A stretch of DNA of 64,000 nucleotides from Gemmatimonadota bacterium (lineage in GTDB: Bacteria; Gemmatimonadota; Gemmatimonadetes; Gemmatimonadales; Gemmatimonadaceae). This document shows, one piece after another, positions 7,897 through 59,889 of this stretch. Location of the stretch: NCBI GenBank assembly GCA_028287235.1, contig JAQBQB010000029.1, positions 1 through 64,000 of the forward strand, given 5' to 3'. The stretch's first letter is position 1. Every line of letters begins with the position of its first letter. The position numbers were made by a program, and so were the translations under genes. The notes below the pieces were generated by a model. The model saw nothing but the letters and a program-made list of their open reading frames with translations, was not told the DNA's origin and made no database searches.

Positions 7897-8888
7897 TGGC
7901 GAACGTTCTCGTATTTGCCGAAACGCGAGGCGTTGCGCTTCGCAAGGTTGCGCTCGAAGCCACGACCGCCGCGCGCGCACTCGCCGACGCGACGGGCGGC
8001 GGCGAAGTGCACGCGCTCGTCGCCGGTCCGCCGGGCGTCGGTGCCGTCGCCGAGCAGCTCGGAAAGCATGGCGCGGACGTCGTCGTCGTGGTCGAGCATG
8101 CGGGTCTCGCGAACTTCAACTGCGAAGTCGCCGCCGCCAGCGTAGCCGCCCGCGTCAAGGGCGCGAGCTATCGCGCCGTACTGCTCGGCTTCTCGGCGCA
8201 GGGGCGCGACGTTGGCCCACGCGTCGCCGTGAAGCTCGACGCGCCGATCGTCGCCGACGTGACGGCAATTCAGGCGGCAACGGGTGACTCGCTCATCGTG
8301 CAGCATCCCGGCTACGCGAACAAGGTCATCGCGACGCTCGAGGTGAAGAGCCCGCTCGCCGTGCTGTCGGTTCGCCCGAGTGCGATCACCGCGCAGGCCG
8401 CCGAGCGTACCGCGCGCGTCGATACGATGGCGCCGGCGGCCGACCCCGCCGCGTCACGCGTCATGGTCAAGGAAGTCGTCGAAGGCGGGAAGGGAAAAAT
8501 CGACCTCGGCGATGCGCCGGTGATCGTCGCGGGTGGGCGGGGCCTGAAGGCAGCGGAGAACTTCAAGATCGTCGAGGAGCTGGCCGCGGCATTCGGTAAC
8601 GCCGCGGTGGGCGCGACGCGCGCCGTCACCGACGACGGATGGCGCCCGCACAGCGACCAGATCGGACAGACCGGCCGCCAGGTGAGCCCGCAGCTCTATG
8701 TCGCGGTCGGCATCTCCGGCGCGATTCAGCATCTCGCCGGCATGCGCACGTCGAAGACGATCGTGGCGATCAACAAGGACAAAGAGGCGCCGATTTTCAA
8801 AGTGGCCGACTACGGAATCGTGGGCGACGTGATGGAAGTCGTTCCGGCGCTGACGAAGGCCGTGCACGAGGCCAAGGCCGGGCACTGA
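7896..8888 (+). CDS. etfA: Electron transfer flavoprotein alpha subunit
   Basis: 330 residues beginning at the ATG that overlaps the etfB stop by one base. The N-terminal domain starts MANVLVFAETRG. The C-terminal FAD-binding domain is complete: VIVAGGRGLK, GATRAVTDDGW, then DQIGQTGRQVSPQLYVAVGI and SGAIQHLAGM, ending in INKDKEAPIFKVADYGIVGD. These residues hold the FAD that passes electrons on to a quinone reductase. The stop again overlaps the following start (TGATG), so etfB, etfA and the membrane gene are translationally coupled and presumably work as one unit. Confidence 0.95.
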   Translation: MANVLVFAETRGVALRKVALEATTAARALADATGGGEVHALVAGPPGVGAVAEQLGKHGADVVVVVEHAGLANFNCEVAAASVAARVKGASYRAVLLGFSAQGRDVGPRVAVKLDAPIVADVTAIQAATGDSLIVQHPGYANKVIATLEVKSPLAVLSVRPSAITAQAAERTARVDTMAPAADPAASRVMVKEVVEGGKGKIDLGDAPVIVAGGRGLKAAENFKIVEELAAAFGNAAVGATRAVTDDGWRPHSDQIGQTGRQVSPQLYVAVGISGAIQHLAGMRTSKTIVAINKDKEAPIFKVADYGIVGDVMEVVPALTKAVHEAKAGH

Positions 8889-10954
8889 TGGGCACGTCCA
8901 ACTTGGTGTTCGCGTTCATCCTGACGTTGGGCGCGGGCTTCTTCGCGCTCAACGTCCAGCGGCTCGTCGGCTACATGCAGATCGGCAAGTCCGACGACCG
9001 CAGCGACCACCCGCTGGTACGTCTCAAGAACGTACTGACGATCGGCATCGGGCAGACGAAGATCTTCCGCGATCCGGTCGCCGGCGCGATGCACGCCACG
9101 ATCTTCTGGGGCTTCATGGTGCTGACCGCCGGCACCGTCGAGATCTTGATCCAGGGCGTATTTAGTAAATTCTCATACGCGCTGCTACTGCCGAAGCTTG
9201 TCTACCAGCTGTACGCCATGTCGCAGGACGGCTTCGCCGCGCTGGTGATCGCCGCCATCGCGTTTGCGTTCTATCGCCGGCTCGTCCTGCACCCGAAGCG
9301 ATTGGAAGGCGACAAGCTCGAGCACACCGACGCGCTGATCATCCTCGGCATGATCGGCGGCCTGATGGTCACGCTGCTGCTGACGAACGCCTGCCAGTAT
9401 CTCTTGGATCCGTCAGCGATCGGTCCCGAAAAATTCGTCTCCCGGCAACTGGCCGGGCTGATAGCGCCCCTCGATCCTGCGCCCACACGGCTGTTCACTG
9501 TCTTTTGGTGGTCGCACGCGCTCCTGATCCTCACGTTCCTCAACTACCTCCCGTACTCGAAGCATCTCCACGTCGCGACGTCGCTGATCAACGTCTACCT
9601 CTCGAACACGAGCGGTCCCGGGCAAAAGGGCGTCATGCGCCCCATGGACCTCGAGGCGGACGTCGACCATTTCGGCGCGGCCGACGTCGAAGACCTCACG
9701 TGGAAGAACCTGCTCGACGGCTACTCCTGCACGGAGTGCGGGCGGTGTACCGCCGCGTGTCCGGCGAACCTCACCGGCAAGCTCCTGAGCCCGCGCAAGA
9801 TCGTCATCAACTCGCGCCAGCGCCTCATGGAGAAGGCGCCGGTGGCGCTCGGCGATCACATGGAATTCATGCACCCGGCGCTCGTCCACGGCGAGGGAGA
9901 TGACGCCGGCGCGACGACCCTGACGGAGGTGCTCGAGCATCGCCTGCTCGACACCTACATCACCGAAGAGGAGCTCTGGGCGTGCACGAGCTGCCGCGCC
10001 TGCGTTCAGGAGTGTCCGGTGTCGATCGACCAGCTCGACATCATCAACGAGATGCGGCGCAATCTCGTCCTCACCGAGTCGCGCTTCCCGGAAGAGATTC
10101 AGCCGGCCTTCGAGTCGCTCGAGCGCAACGGCTCACCGTGGGCGTTCAATCCCGGCGACCGCGCGCTGTGGGCGGAAGGCCTCGAGATCAACACCATGGC
10201 CGAGCTCATGGAGCGCGGCGAGCGGCCGGACATCCTGTTCTGGGTGGGCTGCATGGGCTCGTTCGACGATCGCGCGAAGAAGATCGCCGTCGCCTTTGCG
10301 AGAATCCTCAAGGCGTGCAACGTCAACTTCGCCATCCTCGGGCAGGAAGAGCACTGTCACGGCGATCCGGCACGCCGCATGGGCAACGAGTATCTCTACC
10401 AGATGCTCGCCAAGGACACGATCGGCACGCTCGACCGCTACGAGGTGAAGACGATCGTCACGAGCTGCCCGCACTGCTTTCATCAGATGGGCAACGAGTT
10501 CCCGCAGCTCGGCGGCAACTACGAGGTCATCCACCACTCGACGTACATCGAGCGGTTGCTGCAGGAGAATCTCGTTCCGCTCCAGAGCGATCACGGCCAG
10601 CGTCTCACCGTGGCCTATCACGACTCGTGCTACCTCGGCCGCTACAACGACGTGTACGATGCGCCGCGCGAGACGCTCAAGCGCTCCTTGCCGGTGATCA
10701 ACCTCGTCGAGCCGCCGCGCACGAAGGATCGCGGGCTCTGCTGCGGCGCGGGTGGCGGCCGCATGTTCATGGAAGAGCGGGTGGGGAAGCGCATCAACGT
10801 CGAGCGCACCGAGGAGCTCTTGGCCACCGGCGCGGAAACGATCGCCGTGGCCTGCCCATTCTGCATGACCATGATCAGCGACGGTGTGAAGGCCGTGCAG
10901 TCCGACGTGCCGGTGTTGGACATCGCCGAGGTCGTGGCCGGTCAGCTCGCGTAG
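8888..10954 (+). CDS. etfD: EtfD-like membrane ETF:menaquinone oxidoreductase (iron-sulfur, heterodisulfide reductase-like)
   Basis: 688 residues. The first about 230 residues contain several transmembrane helices of the NarI/cytochrome-b-like type. Two [4Fe-4S] motifs follow, CTECGRCTAACP (about 281) and CTSCRACVQECP (about 365). Two cysteine-rich CCG-type domains come next, with SCPHCFHQMGNE and LCCGAGGGRMF (about 617) and a late ACPFCMTM. The same architecture is found in mycobacterial EtfD and in the EMO enzymes proposed to link EtfAB to menaquinone. The gene starts one base inside etfA. I infer that it passes electrons from EtfAB to the membrane quinone pool; the flavin-type ETF:ubiquinone oxidoreductase is not seen here. 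Confidence 0.85.
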   Translation: MGTSNLVFAFILTLGAGFFALNVQRLVGYMQIGKSDDRSDHPLVRLKNVLTIGIGQTKIFRDPVAGAMHATIFWGFMVLTAGTVEILIQGVFSKFSYALLLPKLVYQLYAMSQDGFAALVIAAIAFAFYRRLVLHPKRLEGDKLEHTDALIILGMIGGLMVTLLLTNACQYLLDPSAIGPEKFVSRQLAGLIAPLDPAPTRLFTVFWWSHALLILTFLNYLPYSKHLHVATSLINVYLSNTSGPGQKGVMRPMDLEADVDHFGAADVEDLTWKNLLDGYSCTECGRCTAACPANLTGKLLSPRKIVINSRQRLMEKAPVALGDHMEFMHPALVHGEGDDAGATTLTEVLEHRLLDTYITEEELWACTSCRACVQECPVSIDQLDIINEMRRNLVLTESRFPEEIQPAFESLERNGSPWAFNPGDRALWAEGLEINTMAELMERGERPDILFWVGCMGSFDDRAKKIAVAFARILKACNVNFAILGQEEHCHGDPARRMGNEYLYQMLAKDTIGTLDRYEVKTIVTSCPHCFHQMGNEFPQLGGNYEVIHHSTYIERLLQENLVPLQSDHGQRLTVAYHDSCYLGRYNDVYDAPRETLKRSLPVINLVEPPRTKDRGLCCGAGGGRMFMEERVGKRINVERTEELLATGAETIAVACPFCMTMISDGVKAVQSDVPVLDIAEVVAGQLA

Positions 10955-10966
10955 GCGAGGCTTCCT

Positions 10967-11213
10967 GCGCGGACGTTGTCATCCTGAGTGGCCGCTGTCA
11001 TCCTGAGTGAACGTTGTCATCCTGAGCGGACGTTGTCATCCTGAGTGAACGTTGTCATCCTGAGTGAACGTTGTCATCCTGAGCGAAGCGAAGGATCGCT
11101 CTCCTACGAGCGCGATCCTTCGTCGCTTCGCTCCTCAGGATGACACGGCGCCGCTCCTCACGATGACACGGCTTCGCTCCTCAGGATGACACGGCGTCGC
11201 TCCTCAGGATGAC
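10967..11213. repeat. Tandem and inverted TCATCCTGAG repeat array (family A)
   Basis: Six direct units begin at 10978, 10997, 11016, 11035, 11054 and 11073, an exact 19-bp period; the consensus is GTCATCCTGAGTGAACGTT. The sixth runs into GCGAAGCGAAGGATC. Then come four units in the opposite orientation with an exact 23-bp period, whose GGATGAC ends fall at 11144, 11167, 11190 and 11213. The two halves can pair as a long hairpin between the convergent etfD and methyltransferase genes. The last inverted unit supplies the final three codons and TGA stop of the methyltransferase gene. It may act as a bidirectional terminator. Confidence 0.85.
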
Positions 11214-11899
11214 GTGCTGTGTCCCCGCACGATCTCGAAGATCGTGATCGTCTGATGCACCTTCCCGTCGACGAACGGGCGCTCGATCCGCTTCCGTAGC
11301 ACCAAGCCCGCGCCGCCGAGCTGTGCCAAGAACTCGTCCCGTCCAATGCGCCCCGGATCGGCCAGATACGCCACGCCGTCGGACGCCAATGCGGCGGCGA
11401 TCGCGCCGGCCACGAGCGCGCCGTACGGCCGCTCGTACAGGACATCCGACGCAAGGACGACGTCGAACCGCGGGAGATCCGCTGGCAGCGCGCGCCAGTC
11501 GAGCAGCAGTCCTTGCGTCTCCGACGCTCCGTTACGTGCCGCGTTGACGCGCGCGAACCGGCACGCGTCCTCATAGTAGTCCGACGCGACGACGCTGAAC
11601 CCGGCCAGCGACGCGGAGGTCGTGACGAGTCCGGCGCCGCACCCCAGCTCGAGAAGCGAGCGGCCGCTTCCCGTCATGCGCCCCACGTACTCGGCAAGAA
11701 TGCGCGACGACGGCCAGAGCTCGGCCCAGTAGGGGAGCCGCTCGTCGCGCTCGAAGTCGATCTCGTCGATCAGCTCCTCGGCGCTCGCGGGATGCAAGAT
11801 CTCTAACGTCCGGCCCGCGATGGATACGGTCGTGTCCACGACCCGGAAGCGGCGGCGAAGCGAGGTCTCCACCGCCTGCACGGACTCGATGCCGCTCAC
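11204..11899 (-). CDS. Class I SAM-dependent methyltransferase, METTL21/EFM-like
   Basis: 231 residues. The SAM-binding glycine loop is LLELGCGAGLV (about residues 82-92), followed by an acidic strand end VVASDYYEDA and FDVVLASDVLYERP. The segment LPYWAELWPSSRILAEYV before the loop is characteristic of the METTL21/nicotinamide-N-methyltransferase-like group, which in eukaryotes methylates lysines of chaperones and elongation factors. Bacterial members are mostly uncharacterised, so a protein-lysine substrate is only suggested. The start overlaps the moeA stop by 4 bp (ATGA), so the two are co-translated. The last codons lie inside repeat family A, which also provides the stop. Confidence 0.8.
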   Translation of the reverse strand: MSGIESVQAVETSLRRRFRVVDTTVSIAGRTLEILHPASAEELIDEIDFERDERLPYWAELWPSSRILAEYVGRMTGSGRSLLELGCGAGLVTTSASLAGFSVVASDYYEDACRFARVNAARNGASETQGLLLDWRALPADLPRFDVVLASDVLYERPYGALVAGAIAAALASDGVAYLADPGRIGRDEFLAQLGGAGLVLRKRIERPFVDGKVHQTITIFEIVRGHSTSS

Positions 11900-16670: not shown

Positions 16671-16839
16671 GACAACAGGATTTAGGGTATTGGGTGTAGG
16701 GTCTAGGGAAGGTACGTCGCGCCTGCGGCGCGACTCAATGGATGGACTGAGCCGAGTCCTGACAAAAAAGCGGGCGCGCCCACGGCGCGCCCGCACACCT
16801 TCCCTGAACCCTAGACCCCAGACCCTCAACCCTGCTGTT
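16671..16839. repeat. Long imperfect inverted repeat with AGGGTCTAGGG arms (family B)
   Basis: The left arm 16684-16713 and right arm 16797-16826 pair over 30 positions with about five mismatches. Weaker pairing continues outward to 16671 and 16839. Each arm is a run of degenerate AGGGT/TAGGG words. The 83 bp between them hold two perfect hairpins: GTCGCGCC/GGCGCGAC (16716-16734) and an 11-bp stem (16770-16794). The element exactly fills the space between the queD start and the BON gene stop, with the stop codon at its right edge. Confidence 0.75.
16764..16794 (-). terminator. Intrinsic terminator of the BON gene, minus strand
   Basis: A perfect 11-bp stem, GCGGGCGCGCC / GGCGCGCCCGC with a CAC loop, lies at 16770-16794. 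On the minus strand it is followed directly by TTTTTT. It is 43 bp beyond the stop of the gene at 16838-17338 and inside repeat family B. Confidence 0.85.
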
Positions 16840-33868: not shown

Positions 33869-34624
33869 ATGTCAGTAAGCGAGTTGGAGACGGCGGAAGC
33901 GCAGGCTGCCGCCGCCGGTGGCGACGCGAAGCGCGCCTACGTGCAGCGCATCTTTTCGGAAATCGCGCCACGGTACGACCTCCTCAATCATCTCTTGAGT
34001 TTCAACGTGGATCGCGCGTGGCGGCGGAAAGCCATCGCGGCCCTCGGCTGGGAGCGCGCGCCCCGGGGTGTCTACGTTGACCTGTGCGCCGGCACCCTGG
34101 ACGTGTCCGCCGAGCTATCGCGCGTGTCGGGATTTTCGGGACGGATCGTCGGAGCGGACTTTGCCGAACCGATGTTGCGCGCAGGGGTGGGGAAGGCGCC
34201 GGCGGCGACCGTGTCGCCGGTCGTCGCCGACGCGGTCGATCTCCCGGTTGCCGACGCCAGCATGTCCGGAGCGATCGTGGCGTTCGGCATTCGGAACGTG
34301 GCCGATCTGGACCGTGGACTGCGCGAGGTGCACCGCGTGCTCGCGCCGGGCGCGCGCTTCGTGATCCTCGAGTTCACCACGCCGCGATCGGTCGCTGTCC
34401 GTGCAGCATATCATTTATACTTTCATCACGTGCTCCCGCAGATTGGCGCGCTCGTGAGCGGGCACGGCACGGCCTACAAGTATCTCCCTCGTTCCGTTGC
34501 CAACTTCCCAATCGAGGAAGCCCTCGCCGAGCGGATGCGCGGCGCCGGCTTCACCGACGTGAACTGGAAGACGCTGACCCTCGGCGTCGCCGCGATCCAC
34601 GTCGGAACGAAGCGTGGGGCGTGA
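33869..34624 (+). CDS. menG: Demethylmenaquinone methyltransferase (UbiE/MenG)
   Basis: 251 residues. After a variable N-terminus the UbiE signatures appear: VQRIFSEIAPRYDLLNHLLS and FNVDRAWRRKAI. The SAM site is VYVDLCAGTLDVSAELSRV. AIVAFGIRNVADLDRGLREV is the second UbiE signature, and GHGTAYKYLPRSVANFP lies near the end. It methylates demethylmenaquinone, the final step of menaquinone synthesis. The last four codons and stop fall within repeat family C. The next three genes complete late menaquinone steps, so this is the head of a quinone operon. ATG 33869 is used; no strong ribosome site is seen. Confidence 0.92.
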   Translation: MSVSELETAEAQAAAAGGDAKRAYVQRIFSEIAPRYDLLNHLLSFNVDRAWRRKAIAALGWERAPRGVYVDLCAGTLDVSAELSRVSGFSGRIVGADFAEPMLRAGVGKAPAATVSPVVADAVDLPVADASMSGAIVAFGIRNVADLDRGLREVHRVLAPGARFVILEFTTPRSVAVRAAYHLYFHHVLPQIGALVSGHGTAYKYLPRSVANFPIEEALAERMRGAGFTDVNWKTLTLGVAAIHVGTKRGA

Positions 34625-34667
34625 CTGCCCCGCGCCCGCGCCCCACGCCTTACGCCCCACGCCTTGT
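34612..34667. repeat. Inverted GCGTGGGGCGT repeat (family C), menG-mqnL spacer
   Basis: GCGTGGGGCGT (34612-34622) is repeated inverted as ACGCCCCACGC (34652-34662). The left arm carries the last codons and TGA of menG; the right arm continues into CTTGT, which contains the TTG start of mqnL. The 16-mer ACGCCCCACGCCTTGT (34652-34667) recurs exactly on the opposite strand at 59795-59810. Confidence 0.75.
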
Positions 34668-58344: not shown

Positions 58345-59889
58345 CTACCGTTTTGCCGGTCGAATCTGGCCGATCGCCGTCAGCAGCGCGCGCGCCTTGT
58401 TCTGATGCTCGAGAAACTCGCGCTCCGGCACGGAATCGTAGACCACACCCGCCGCCGACTGTATCGACGCGACGCCGTTGGCGATCACGCAGGTGCGGAT
58501 CGTGATGGCGAGGTCCATGCGCCTCACGCCCGCGCTGATGTAGCCCACCGCACCACCGTACGGGCCGCGGCGCTCGGGCTCCATTTCGTCGATGATCTCC
58601 ATGGCGCGGACCTTCGGCGCGCCGGTGAGCGTACCGGCCGGGAAGCCGGCGCGAAACGCGTCCATCGCCGTGAGGTCGTCGCGCAGCTCGCCGTCGACCT
58701 GGCTCACGAGGTGAAGCACGTGCGAGTAGCGCTCCACGACCATCAACTCGCTCACGCGCACGGAGCCGTACTTGGCGACGCGGCCCACGTCGTTGCGTCC
58801 GAGGTCGACGAGCATGAGGTGCTCCGCGCGCTCCTTCTCGTCGGCGATGAGCTCGGCGGTCATCGCCGCGTCGTCGGCTTCGGTGCGGCCGCGGCGACGC
58901 GTGCCGGCGATCGGACGCAACGTCACCGTGCCTTGCGCACTCACGCGCACGAGAAGCTCGGGCGAGCTCCCGACGATCTCGACGCCGTCGAGGACGAGAT
59001 GATACATGTAGGGCGACGGGTTGATCACCCGCAGGGCGCGATACAGGTCGGTCGACGAGAAATCGAACGGCACGTCGATCCGGCGGGCGATCTGCACCTG
59101 AAACGCGTCCCCGGCAATGATGTATTCGCGCACGCGCTCCACGTCGACGAGAAACTTCGCTTTGTCGTAGCGCGACTCGCCTTCGGCGGGTGCGGCCTTG
59201 GTATCGAGCTCCAGGGGCGCGAGCACGGACGGCCCGCGCAAGCGCGCGACGGTCGCGTCGATCGTCCGCAGGGCGGCGTCGTAGGCGGTTTGGAGCTCCG
59301 CATCGGATGCCGAGTCGCTCACGCGTGCCGTGGCCACGACGCGCGCCTGCGAGCGCAGGTTGTCGAAGATGACGAGCGCGTCGGTGAAGACGAACAGCGC
59401 GTCGGGCACATCGACGCCGCGGGCCGGCGGGGCGGGGAGCCGCTCGATGATGCGGGCCACGTCGTAGCCAAAGTAGCCGACGGCCCCGCTCCAGAATTCG
59501 CCGATCTCCGGGACTTCAACGGGCTCGCAGTCGCGCAGCAATGCTTCGAGGTCGACGAGGGGATCGTCGGGGCGCCGGTCGTTGTGCCAGCCGCGGTCGG
59601 CCGTCCAGTCCTGCACCGTGCCGTCCACGAGCTTCCAGGCGGCACGCGGCGCGGTTCCCATGAACGTATACCGCGCCCACGTCTCGCCTCCGGCAGGCGC
59701 GGACTCGAGCAGGAAGGCGAACGGACCGTTTCGCAGCTTGGCGAACGCGGCCACAGGAGTTTCGGCATCGAGCAGGACGTCGCGCCACACGGGAACAAGG
59801 CGTGGGGCGTGGACCGTGGGGCGTGGACCGTGTGAGGCGGGCCGTGGGGCATGGCTCCGCGCGCGGGCGCGGAAATCTTCAACACTCAT
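58345..59889 (-). CDS. trpE: Anthranilate synthase component I
   Basis: 514 residues from ATG 59889. The tryptophan feedback site is FAFLLESAPAG with LLES at 60-63. The chorismate site has GDAFQVQIARRIDVPF, INPSPYMYHLVLDGVEIVGS, SPELLVRV, RPIAGTRRRGRTEADD, MLVDLGRNDVGRVA and FPAGTLTGAPKVRAMEIIDE. It makes anthranilate from chorismate with a TrpG partner not seen in this window. LLES favours TrpE over PabB. Residues about 12-31 (SHAPRPASHGPRPTVHAPR) are encoded by repeat family C and are unlike TrpE. The huge open frame to 61845 is antisense to the next gene and not coding. Confidence 0.92.
   Translation of the reverse strand: MSVEDFRARARSHAPRPASHGPRPTVHAPRLVPVWRDVLLDAETPVAAFAKLRNGPFAFLLESAPAGGETWARYTFMGTAPRAAWKLVDGTVQDWTADRGWHNDRRPDDPLVDLEALLRDCEPVEVPEIGEFWSGAVGYFGYDVARIIERLPAPPARGVDVPDALFVFTDALVIFDNLRSQARVVATARVSDSASDAELQTAYDAALRTIDATVARLRGPSVLAPLELDTKAAPAEGESRYDKAKFLVDVERVREYIIAGDAFQVQIARRIDVPFDFSSTDLYRALRVINPSPYMYHLVLDGVEIVGSSPELLVRVSAQGTVTLRPIAGTRRRGRTEADDAAMTAELIADEKERAEHLMLVDLGRNDVGRVAKYGSVRVSELMVVERYSHVLHLVSQVDGELRDDLTAMDAFRAGFPAGTLTGAPKVRAMEIIDEMEPERRGPYGGAVGYISAGVRRMDLAITIRTCVIANGVASIQSAAGVVYDSVPEREFLEHQNKARALLTAIGQIRPAKR
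59795..59850. repeat. GTGGGGCGTGGACC tandem repeat (family C) inside the trpE 5' end
   Basis: On the plus strand CGTGGGGCGTGGAC is repeated in tandem, then GCCGTGGGGCATGG. On the minus strand it encodes His-Ala-Pro-Arg/His-Gly-Pro-Arg repeats near the TrpE N-terminus. The 16-mer at 59795-59810 (minus strand) is identical to 34652-34667 in the menG-mqnL spacer. Confidence 0.75.

Follow-up and report, generated by a model that had tools for sequence, protein, structure and literature searches.

Inverted REP dimers in high copy number, as well as tandem REPIN clusters that include flanking DNA, have already been described (PMC3116915, PMC3733652; both in the portions available to us). RAYT genes are described in the accessible part of PMC2817692 as always flanked by inverted REPs. 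CGTC-tagged REPs are, like the element reported here, presented without an associated transposase in the available text of Di Nocera et al. (PMC3733652). Literature searches, with most subscription journals outside their coverage, did not return the present palindrome family by sequence. The author of the earlier note on this DNA knew of no described mechanism for such an array. The dimers and flank-including clusters just mentioned qualify this statement; arms built of half palindromes ending at the loop were not found in the available portions of PMC3116915 and PMC3733652.

The array examined here occupies positions 10967-11213 of a 64-kb window, that is, the whole stretch of DNA analysed (64,000 nucleotides), from the genome designated G000. 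It is one of about 57 loci in this genome at which copies of a mobile palindrome face each other. We regard it as probably a non-autonomous mobile REP dimer with arms enlarged by tandem duplication, for which breaks may have occurred at the apex of the hairpin.

The array and its central dimer

Six exact copies of the core GTCATCCTGAG were identified on the plus strand, at 10978, 10997, 11016, 11035, 11054, and 11073 (period 19), and four on the minus strand, at 11134, 11157, 11180, and 11203 (period 23), the copy at 11157 with one mismatch. The cores of the left block span 10978-11083 and those of the inverted right block 11134-11213. Apart from the single mismatched core, this agrees with the earlier description of six 19-bp direct units facing four 23-bp inverted units, and the genes on both sides of the array are indeed convergent (Table 1). 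With one mismatch allowed, the core matches the window 11 times, including 10 matches inside the array, versus 1.29 expected; this number was reached in none of 100 dinucleotide shuffles of the window. The two blocks can pair as one hairpin, as had been proposed: the 247-nt array folds with -80.3 kcal/mol versus a shuffle mean of -43.1 (z -10; 0 of 200 shuffles). The right flank of the array gave no clear match to its own spacer.

Table 1. Features of the array and of the adjoining genes in the 64-kb window.
Feature	Position	Strand	Remarks
Left neighbour, an open frame encoding CCG cysteine-rich and 4Fe-4S domains	8639..10954	+	Ends 23 bp before the first core; coordinates are those of the open frame rather than of a called start codon
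Outer left flank CGGACGTT	10970..10977	+	Repeated letter for letter as one of the left-arm spacers
Left arm, five 19-bp units	10978..11072	+	Each with the 11-nt 5' end GTCATCCTGAG and an 8-nt flank-like spacer
Whole short-loop palindrome GTCATCCTGAGCGAAGCGAAGGATC	11073..11097	+	Tag GTC, stem ATCCT/AGGAT, centre GA-GC-GAA-GC-GA
Central spacer, 16 bp	11098..11113		Self-complementary in part; 16 bp in 36 of 51 dimers of this genome
Whole long-loop palindrome GTCATCCTGAGGAGCGAAGCGACGAAGGATC	11114..11144	-	Forms a 72-bp hairpin dimer with 11073-11097
Right arm, three 23-bp units	11145..11213	-	One core with a mismatch
Right neighbour, methyltransferase-like gene	11204..11899	-	TGA stop inside the outermost core

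At the centre of the array, two related palindromes lie in inverted orientation (25 + 16 + 31 bp) and fold together as one hairpin. The innermost plus-strand copy is read as GTC-ATCCT-GA-GC-GAA-GC-GA-AGGAT-C, and the innermost minus-strand copy, separated from it by 16 bp, is the long-loop form. The short form thus has a 5-bp stem starting with AT, two GA mismatches, 2 bp, and a 3-nt loop. On the GTC strand, GA pairs of the sheared type and a GNA loop, which is a stable one, may form in the centre. The 72-bp dimer folds with -30.7 and -32.2 kcal/mol on the two strands (z -8.3 and -9.6, respectively). A lone palindrome folds weakly when DNA parameters are used (-2.7 kcal/mol, z -0.9) and does not beat its shuffles.

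The same anatomy recurs in the 51 distinct dimers of this genome that were parsed. A short-loop partner (loop of 6) is present in all of them, and 44 are heterodimers. All five stem pairs are formed in 71 of 77 elements of this genome and in 188 of 203 foreign elements, as counted with a pattern that fixed the tag, the centre, and the last base and was blind to pairing, at loci which had themselves been fetched with the common stem. Six alternative stems are kept by paired changes, namely ATTCT/AGAAT, ATGTT/AACAT, ATGCT/AGCAT, ATCCC/GGGAT, ACTCT/AGAGT, and ACCCT/AGGGT. All four bases were seen at loop position N, with an uneven distribution in the elements of this genome. T or C stands directly before GTC in 116 of 124 elements of this genome and in 189 of 195 foreign ones. 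GGATC is followed by three nucleotides that read mostly GCT or GCC in this genome and TTT or TTA at foreign loci.

Copies in this genome, in relatives, and in other phyla

The survey of G000 revealed 356 cores (179 on the plus and 177 on the minus strand) versus 2 for the reversed control. This rules out a chance origin of the cores, as well as the single occurrence that had been named as counter-evidence in the earlier note. Facing core pairs 20-60 bp apart occur at 57 loci. These 57 pairs are dimers with the tags outside, in a classification that covered part of the 356 cores. Among the fetched loci, 52 facing pairs were available, a set which allows one mismatch in the core and is not identical to the 57 pairs; 23 of these have no multiplied arm, 13 have one, and 16 have both. 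Array loci are strongly clustered in contig C3 (18-55 kb) and contig C9 (138-178 kb), with one locus every few kilobases. At two loci, L209 (contig C19, 43117-43442) and L215 (contig C23, about 497.8-498.0 kb), the whole dimer is repeated in tandem with periods of 84 and 89 bp, respectively. These two resemble the described REPIN clusters, whereas other loci repeat half palindromes only.

The count was also extended to relatives, as had been proposed. The core is abundant in 8 of 198 genomes of the class: G000 (356), G010 (213), G153 (125), G102 (84), G150 (46), G020 (39), G130 (36), and G110 (34). In most others, the counts are near the reversed control. Within the genus, facing pairs number 57 in G000, nine in G201, and none in four other congeners, although many short matches to the element were present in one of the latter, G199.

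Variation was compared between congeneric species, not strains. The site of the window's array is empty in two of them: the aligned flanks lie 5 bp apart in G198 and adjoin directly in G199. In G202 and G200, the site holds other DNA, about 0.8 and 2.7 kb long, respectively. In G201, a simple dimer without tandem arms follows the stop codon directly. This armless dimer at the same site favours the earlier suggestion that the palindrome came first and the arms later, but its spacer is different and it may be a separate insertion. Eight further loci were queried by their joined flanks, and five of these gave 14 fetched orthologous sites, counted for clearly syntenic pairs only. Up to 55 bp separate the aligned flanks at seven of these sites, and 83-360 bp of other sequence at the remaining seven, among them the L210 site in G201, where a one-mismatch core is present.

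Orthologous gene ends in congeners were also seen to carry, in place of GTCATCCTGAG, facing repeats of unrelated sequence around a hairpin, for example copies of GCGTATGG opposite CCATACGC-like copies. Such sites are L281 (G201, contig C9, about 191.3 kb), L283 (G200, contig C37, about 18.05 kb), L284 (G201, contig C9, about 94.9 kb), and L291 (G202, contig C42). A strict automatic scan, which looked for facing tandem arms regardless of their sequence, retained L283 as the sole convincing congener case. Since these arms are unrelated in sequence and lie at similar gene ends, hairpins at gene ends might in general tend to grow outward in this way.

The same scan found one other candidate in the window, the GC-rich segment 54854-55304. 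At 16672-16838, inverted arms of 42 nt, which are 81% complementary and consist of GGGT-rich repeats (TAGGGTCTAGGG opposite CCCTAGACCC), surround a GC-rich terminator-like hairpin. At two places far apart in the window, 34613-34665 and 59799-59854, GCGTGGGGCGTG / CGCCCCACGCC is present as short repeats that are either facing or direct.

A string composed of the tandem half and the whole palindrome (35 defined bases) was detected in at least 116 stretches from many phyla; several of these share a genome, so that the stretches are not all independent. Lachnospiraceae, Bacteroidales, Bifidobacterium, Pirellulales, Cyanobacteria, Chloroflexi, Acidobacteria, Acholeplasmataceae, Fibrobacter, and others are among the matches listed (80 titles). 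The likeness of the core to palindromes in spacers of soil bacteria, mentioned in the earlier note, was therefore drawn too narrowly: bacteria from many phyla possess the string, gut and rumen inhabitants included. An assembly artefact was rejected, since the pattern is also present in records whose titles name strains rather than MAGs, such as Bifidobacterium vespertilionis, Granulicella rosea, and Taibaiella chishuiensis. The pattern used to search for foreign loci demanded the 11-nt core and units of up to 35 bp.

Mobility and gene-end setting

The core unit is an inverted dimer of two imperfect palindromes that carry a (T/C)GTC tag; one of them has a short loop and the other usually a long one. 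The mobility of this dimer and its landing just past gene ends are shown by the copy number, the anatomy, and the empty sites.

The element is probably non-autonomous, and no RAYT was linked to it in the genomes searched. PF01797 (Y1_Tnp) was detected in 50 of the 198 class genomes and in 22 of 40 further genomes (38 in which tandem arms are present, together with G199 and G201). It gave no match in G000, in the core-rich genomes G020, G150, and G110, or in 17 of the 38 other genomes holding tandem arms. No palindrome was found around any of the 50 Y1_Tnp loci (within 1.5 kb on either side where the contig allows); loose pattern matches occurred at four of them, none with a palindrome. These results, together with a tag that is not GTAG, make it unlikely that a RAYT-type Y1 transposase spread the dimer as a REPIN, cut near the palindrome to build the arms, and was later lost. 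Such a history would agree with the resemblance of the dimer to a REPIN and with a mild excess of Y1_Tnp in class genomes possessing at least 34 cores (4 of 8, namely G010, G153, G102, and G130, versus 46 of 190 others). Loss of the REPtron is, moreover, reported for E. coli strains in the available part of PMC3733652.

An all-against-all comparison of 4,656 open frames from the collected loci gave no candidate for a gene carried by the element. The widest recurrent neighbour cluster, of which one member was scanned, is an ABC transporter ATPase and not a mobiliser candidate. An equally wide cluster was dropped as consisting, judging from coordinates, mainly of frames that read through the repeats. 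A plasmid or phage vector was rejected: no match was obtained in 72,556 plasmid records, and two short matches (E 0.6) in 50,697 phage records. The exact palindrome is present in 62 stretches of 2.9 million viral contigs.

A crude home-made gene caller placed the 57 clusters of G000 in tandem (28), convergent (16), and divergent (4) settings, inside a frame (5), or in an undecided context (4). The clusters often lie within 30 bp of a gene end. An intrinsic terminator was rejected: no T run follows the palindrome in this genome, and the next base is G in 91 of 124 cases. The preponderance of tandem and convergent settings and the strong fold of the 247 nt would suit a selected gene-end device, in which the hairpin stabilises mRNA or blocks transcription from both sides and the arms are kept for the strength they add. 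This reading is, however, decidedly improbable in view of the orthologous sites that are empty or otherwise filled in congeners, which make the element dispensable, the lack of a T run, and the 23 of 52 facing pairs without a multiplied arm.

Growth of the arms and comparison with known systems

Outside the dimer, each unit consists of the 5' part of the palindrome and a spacer resembling the adjoining flank. Arms ending in a palindrome number 127 in this genome, including 54 with at least two copies, and 245 at foreign loci, including 160 with at least two copies; arms starting less than 40 nt from the end of a locus, duplicates, and 19 own and 66 foreign arms lacking a recognised terminal palindrome were left out of these counts. 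The period is constant within 1 bp in 34 of 40 own arms with three or more copies, and exactly so in 27. Identity between the outer flank and the first spacer is 0.547 in this genome (shuffled-flank mean 0.332, best of 200 shuffles 0.387) and 0.537 at foreign loci (mean 0.316, best of 200 0.354). Judged from the sequence, the repeat unit includes local flank, and the periods of the two arms therefore differ. Of the 16 loci at which both arms are multiplied, not one has equal innermost periods. These periods and the likeness of each spacer to its own outer flank uphold the earlier proposal of separate amplification of the arms.

It is highly improbable that the array was assembled from protein-binding sites, with GTCATCCTGAG bound by a protein and copies gained by repeated insertion of half-elements: the 11-nt core is the best-kept part of the unit, foreign phyla included, but the spacers match the local flank instead of being unrelated, and periods that are fixed within an arm and differ between arms indicate local duplication.

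In 119 of 154 arms at foreign loci, and in 26 of 51 arms of this genome, the palindrome-derived part of the innermost unit ends between -1 and +4 nt from the start of the loop. The commonest foreign breakpoint is exactly the loop start (55 of 154), and the peak is broader in this genome. Breakpoints 6 nt or more beyond the loop start were found in 13 of the 51 arms of this genome and in 14 of the 154 at foreign loci. Six foreign and three own arms without a recognised loop were set aside from these counts, in which breaks more than about one nucleotide before the loop are largely invisible because the search required the core. Some arms repeat the whole palindrome instead of the half. Microhomology at the junction was readable at 23 arms (6 of 43 own, 17 of 139 foreign), with lengths of 0 in nine, 2-5 in nine, and 6-9 nt in five; the last group probably represents decayed outer copies. 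Microhomology was dropped as a driver, given the few readable junctions.

According to our reading of a mobile dimer with growing arms, each end grew independently after insertion. The outer flank and the 5' half of the palindrome were duplicated in tandem, and the array then expanded at a fixed period; the sequence shows both steps. The duplication usually ends at the hairpin loop. At the apex, the DNA might be broken or the polymerase released; a hairpin nuclease of the SbcCD type, cutting 5' of the loop, is one example. Synthesis would then be primed anew in the flank, with little or no homology needed, and ordinary slippage would follow. The weak fold of a lone palindrome, the broader breakpoint peak in this genome, the lack of a mobilising gene among those searched, and the unclear match of the array's right flank to its spacer speak against the reading. 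We infer this origin of the duplications only tentatively, and a hairpin-cutting nuclease is a possible cause. In the available portions of the respective papers, SbcCD is reported to cut hairpins 5' of the loop (PMC6265447) and to cleave a palindrome in E. coli in a replication-dependent manner (PMC4245961).

More speculatively, a bacteria-wide palindrome might be moved by an enzyme other than a RAYT, and its loop-opened hairpin might recopy the flank and half of the palindrome, giving outward growth in unrelated phyla. If so, the mobilisation of REP families that lack a RAYT and the origin of tandem arrays beside palindromes would become linked questions. The fixed breakpoint at the hairpin loop, observed in unrelated phyla, leads to a direct and testable prediction, and the locus-specific periods would serve as strain markers.

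The CGTC/TGTC REP superfamily (Di Nocera et al., 2013, PMC3733652) was compared by the part of the text available to us and not by consensus figures, so that the exact family may or may not be included in it. Shared with this superfamily, which has an unpaired CGTC, TGTC, or CCTC at one end, are the terminal (T/C)GTC, the stem beginning with AT, the frequent heterodimers, the gene-end location, and the lack of a link to RAYTs or other transposases. Dimers with the tags outside predominate in the superfamily and may do so here, where 57 of them were counted. By contrast, the superfamily has a stem of 8-9 bp, a loop of 4-5 nt, a 3' CCA tail, and rare clusters, whereas the present element has a stem broken by GA/GA, a 3-nt loop, no CCA tail, and frequent clusters. 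Neisseria dRS3 (CGTC-1 in the same partial source) has the superfamily tag in common and forms large clusters, a likeness by description only.

With the Pseudomonas REPINs (Bertels and Rainey, 2011, PMC3116915, as represented in the available portion) the element shares the inverted REP doublet, which forms one hairpin and is the replicating unit there, the high copy number, and the extragenic location; some REPIN clusters are also tandem repeats that include flanking sequence. The GTAG tag, in place of which TGTC/CGTC is found, and a palindrome-flanked RAYT are absent here, as searched in the own genome and at the 50 Y1 loci. REPINs, according to the same portion, adjoin RAYTs, and their tandem unit is the whole REPIN, whereas here it is mostly the 5' half of one palindrome, repeated in each arm separately. 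The element works like a REPIN and carries the CGTC/TGTC tag, but departs from the superfamily in its stem, loop, and tail and from the REPINs in the RAYT link.
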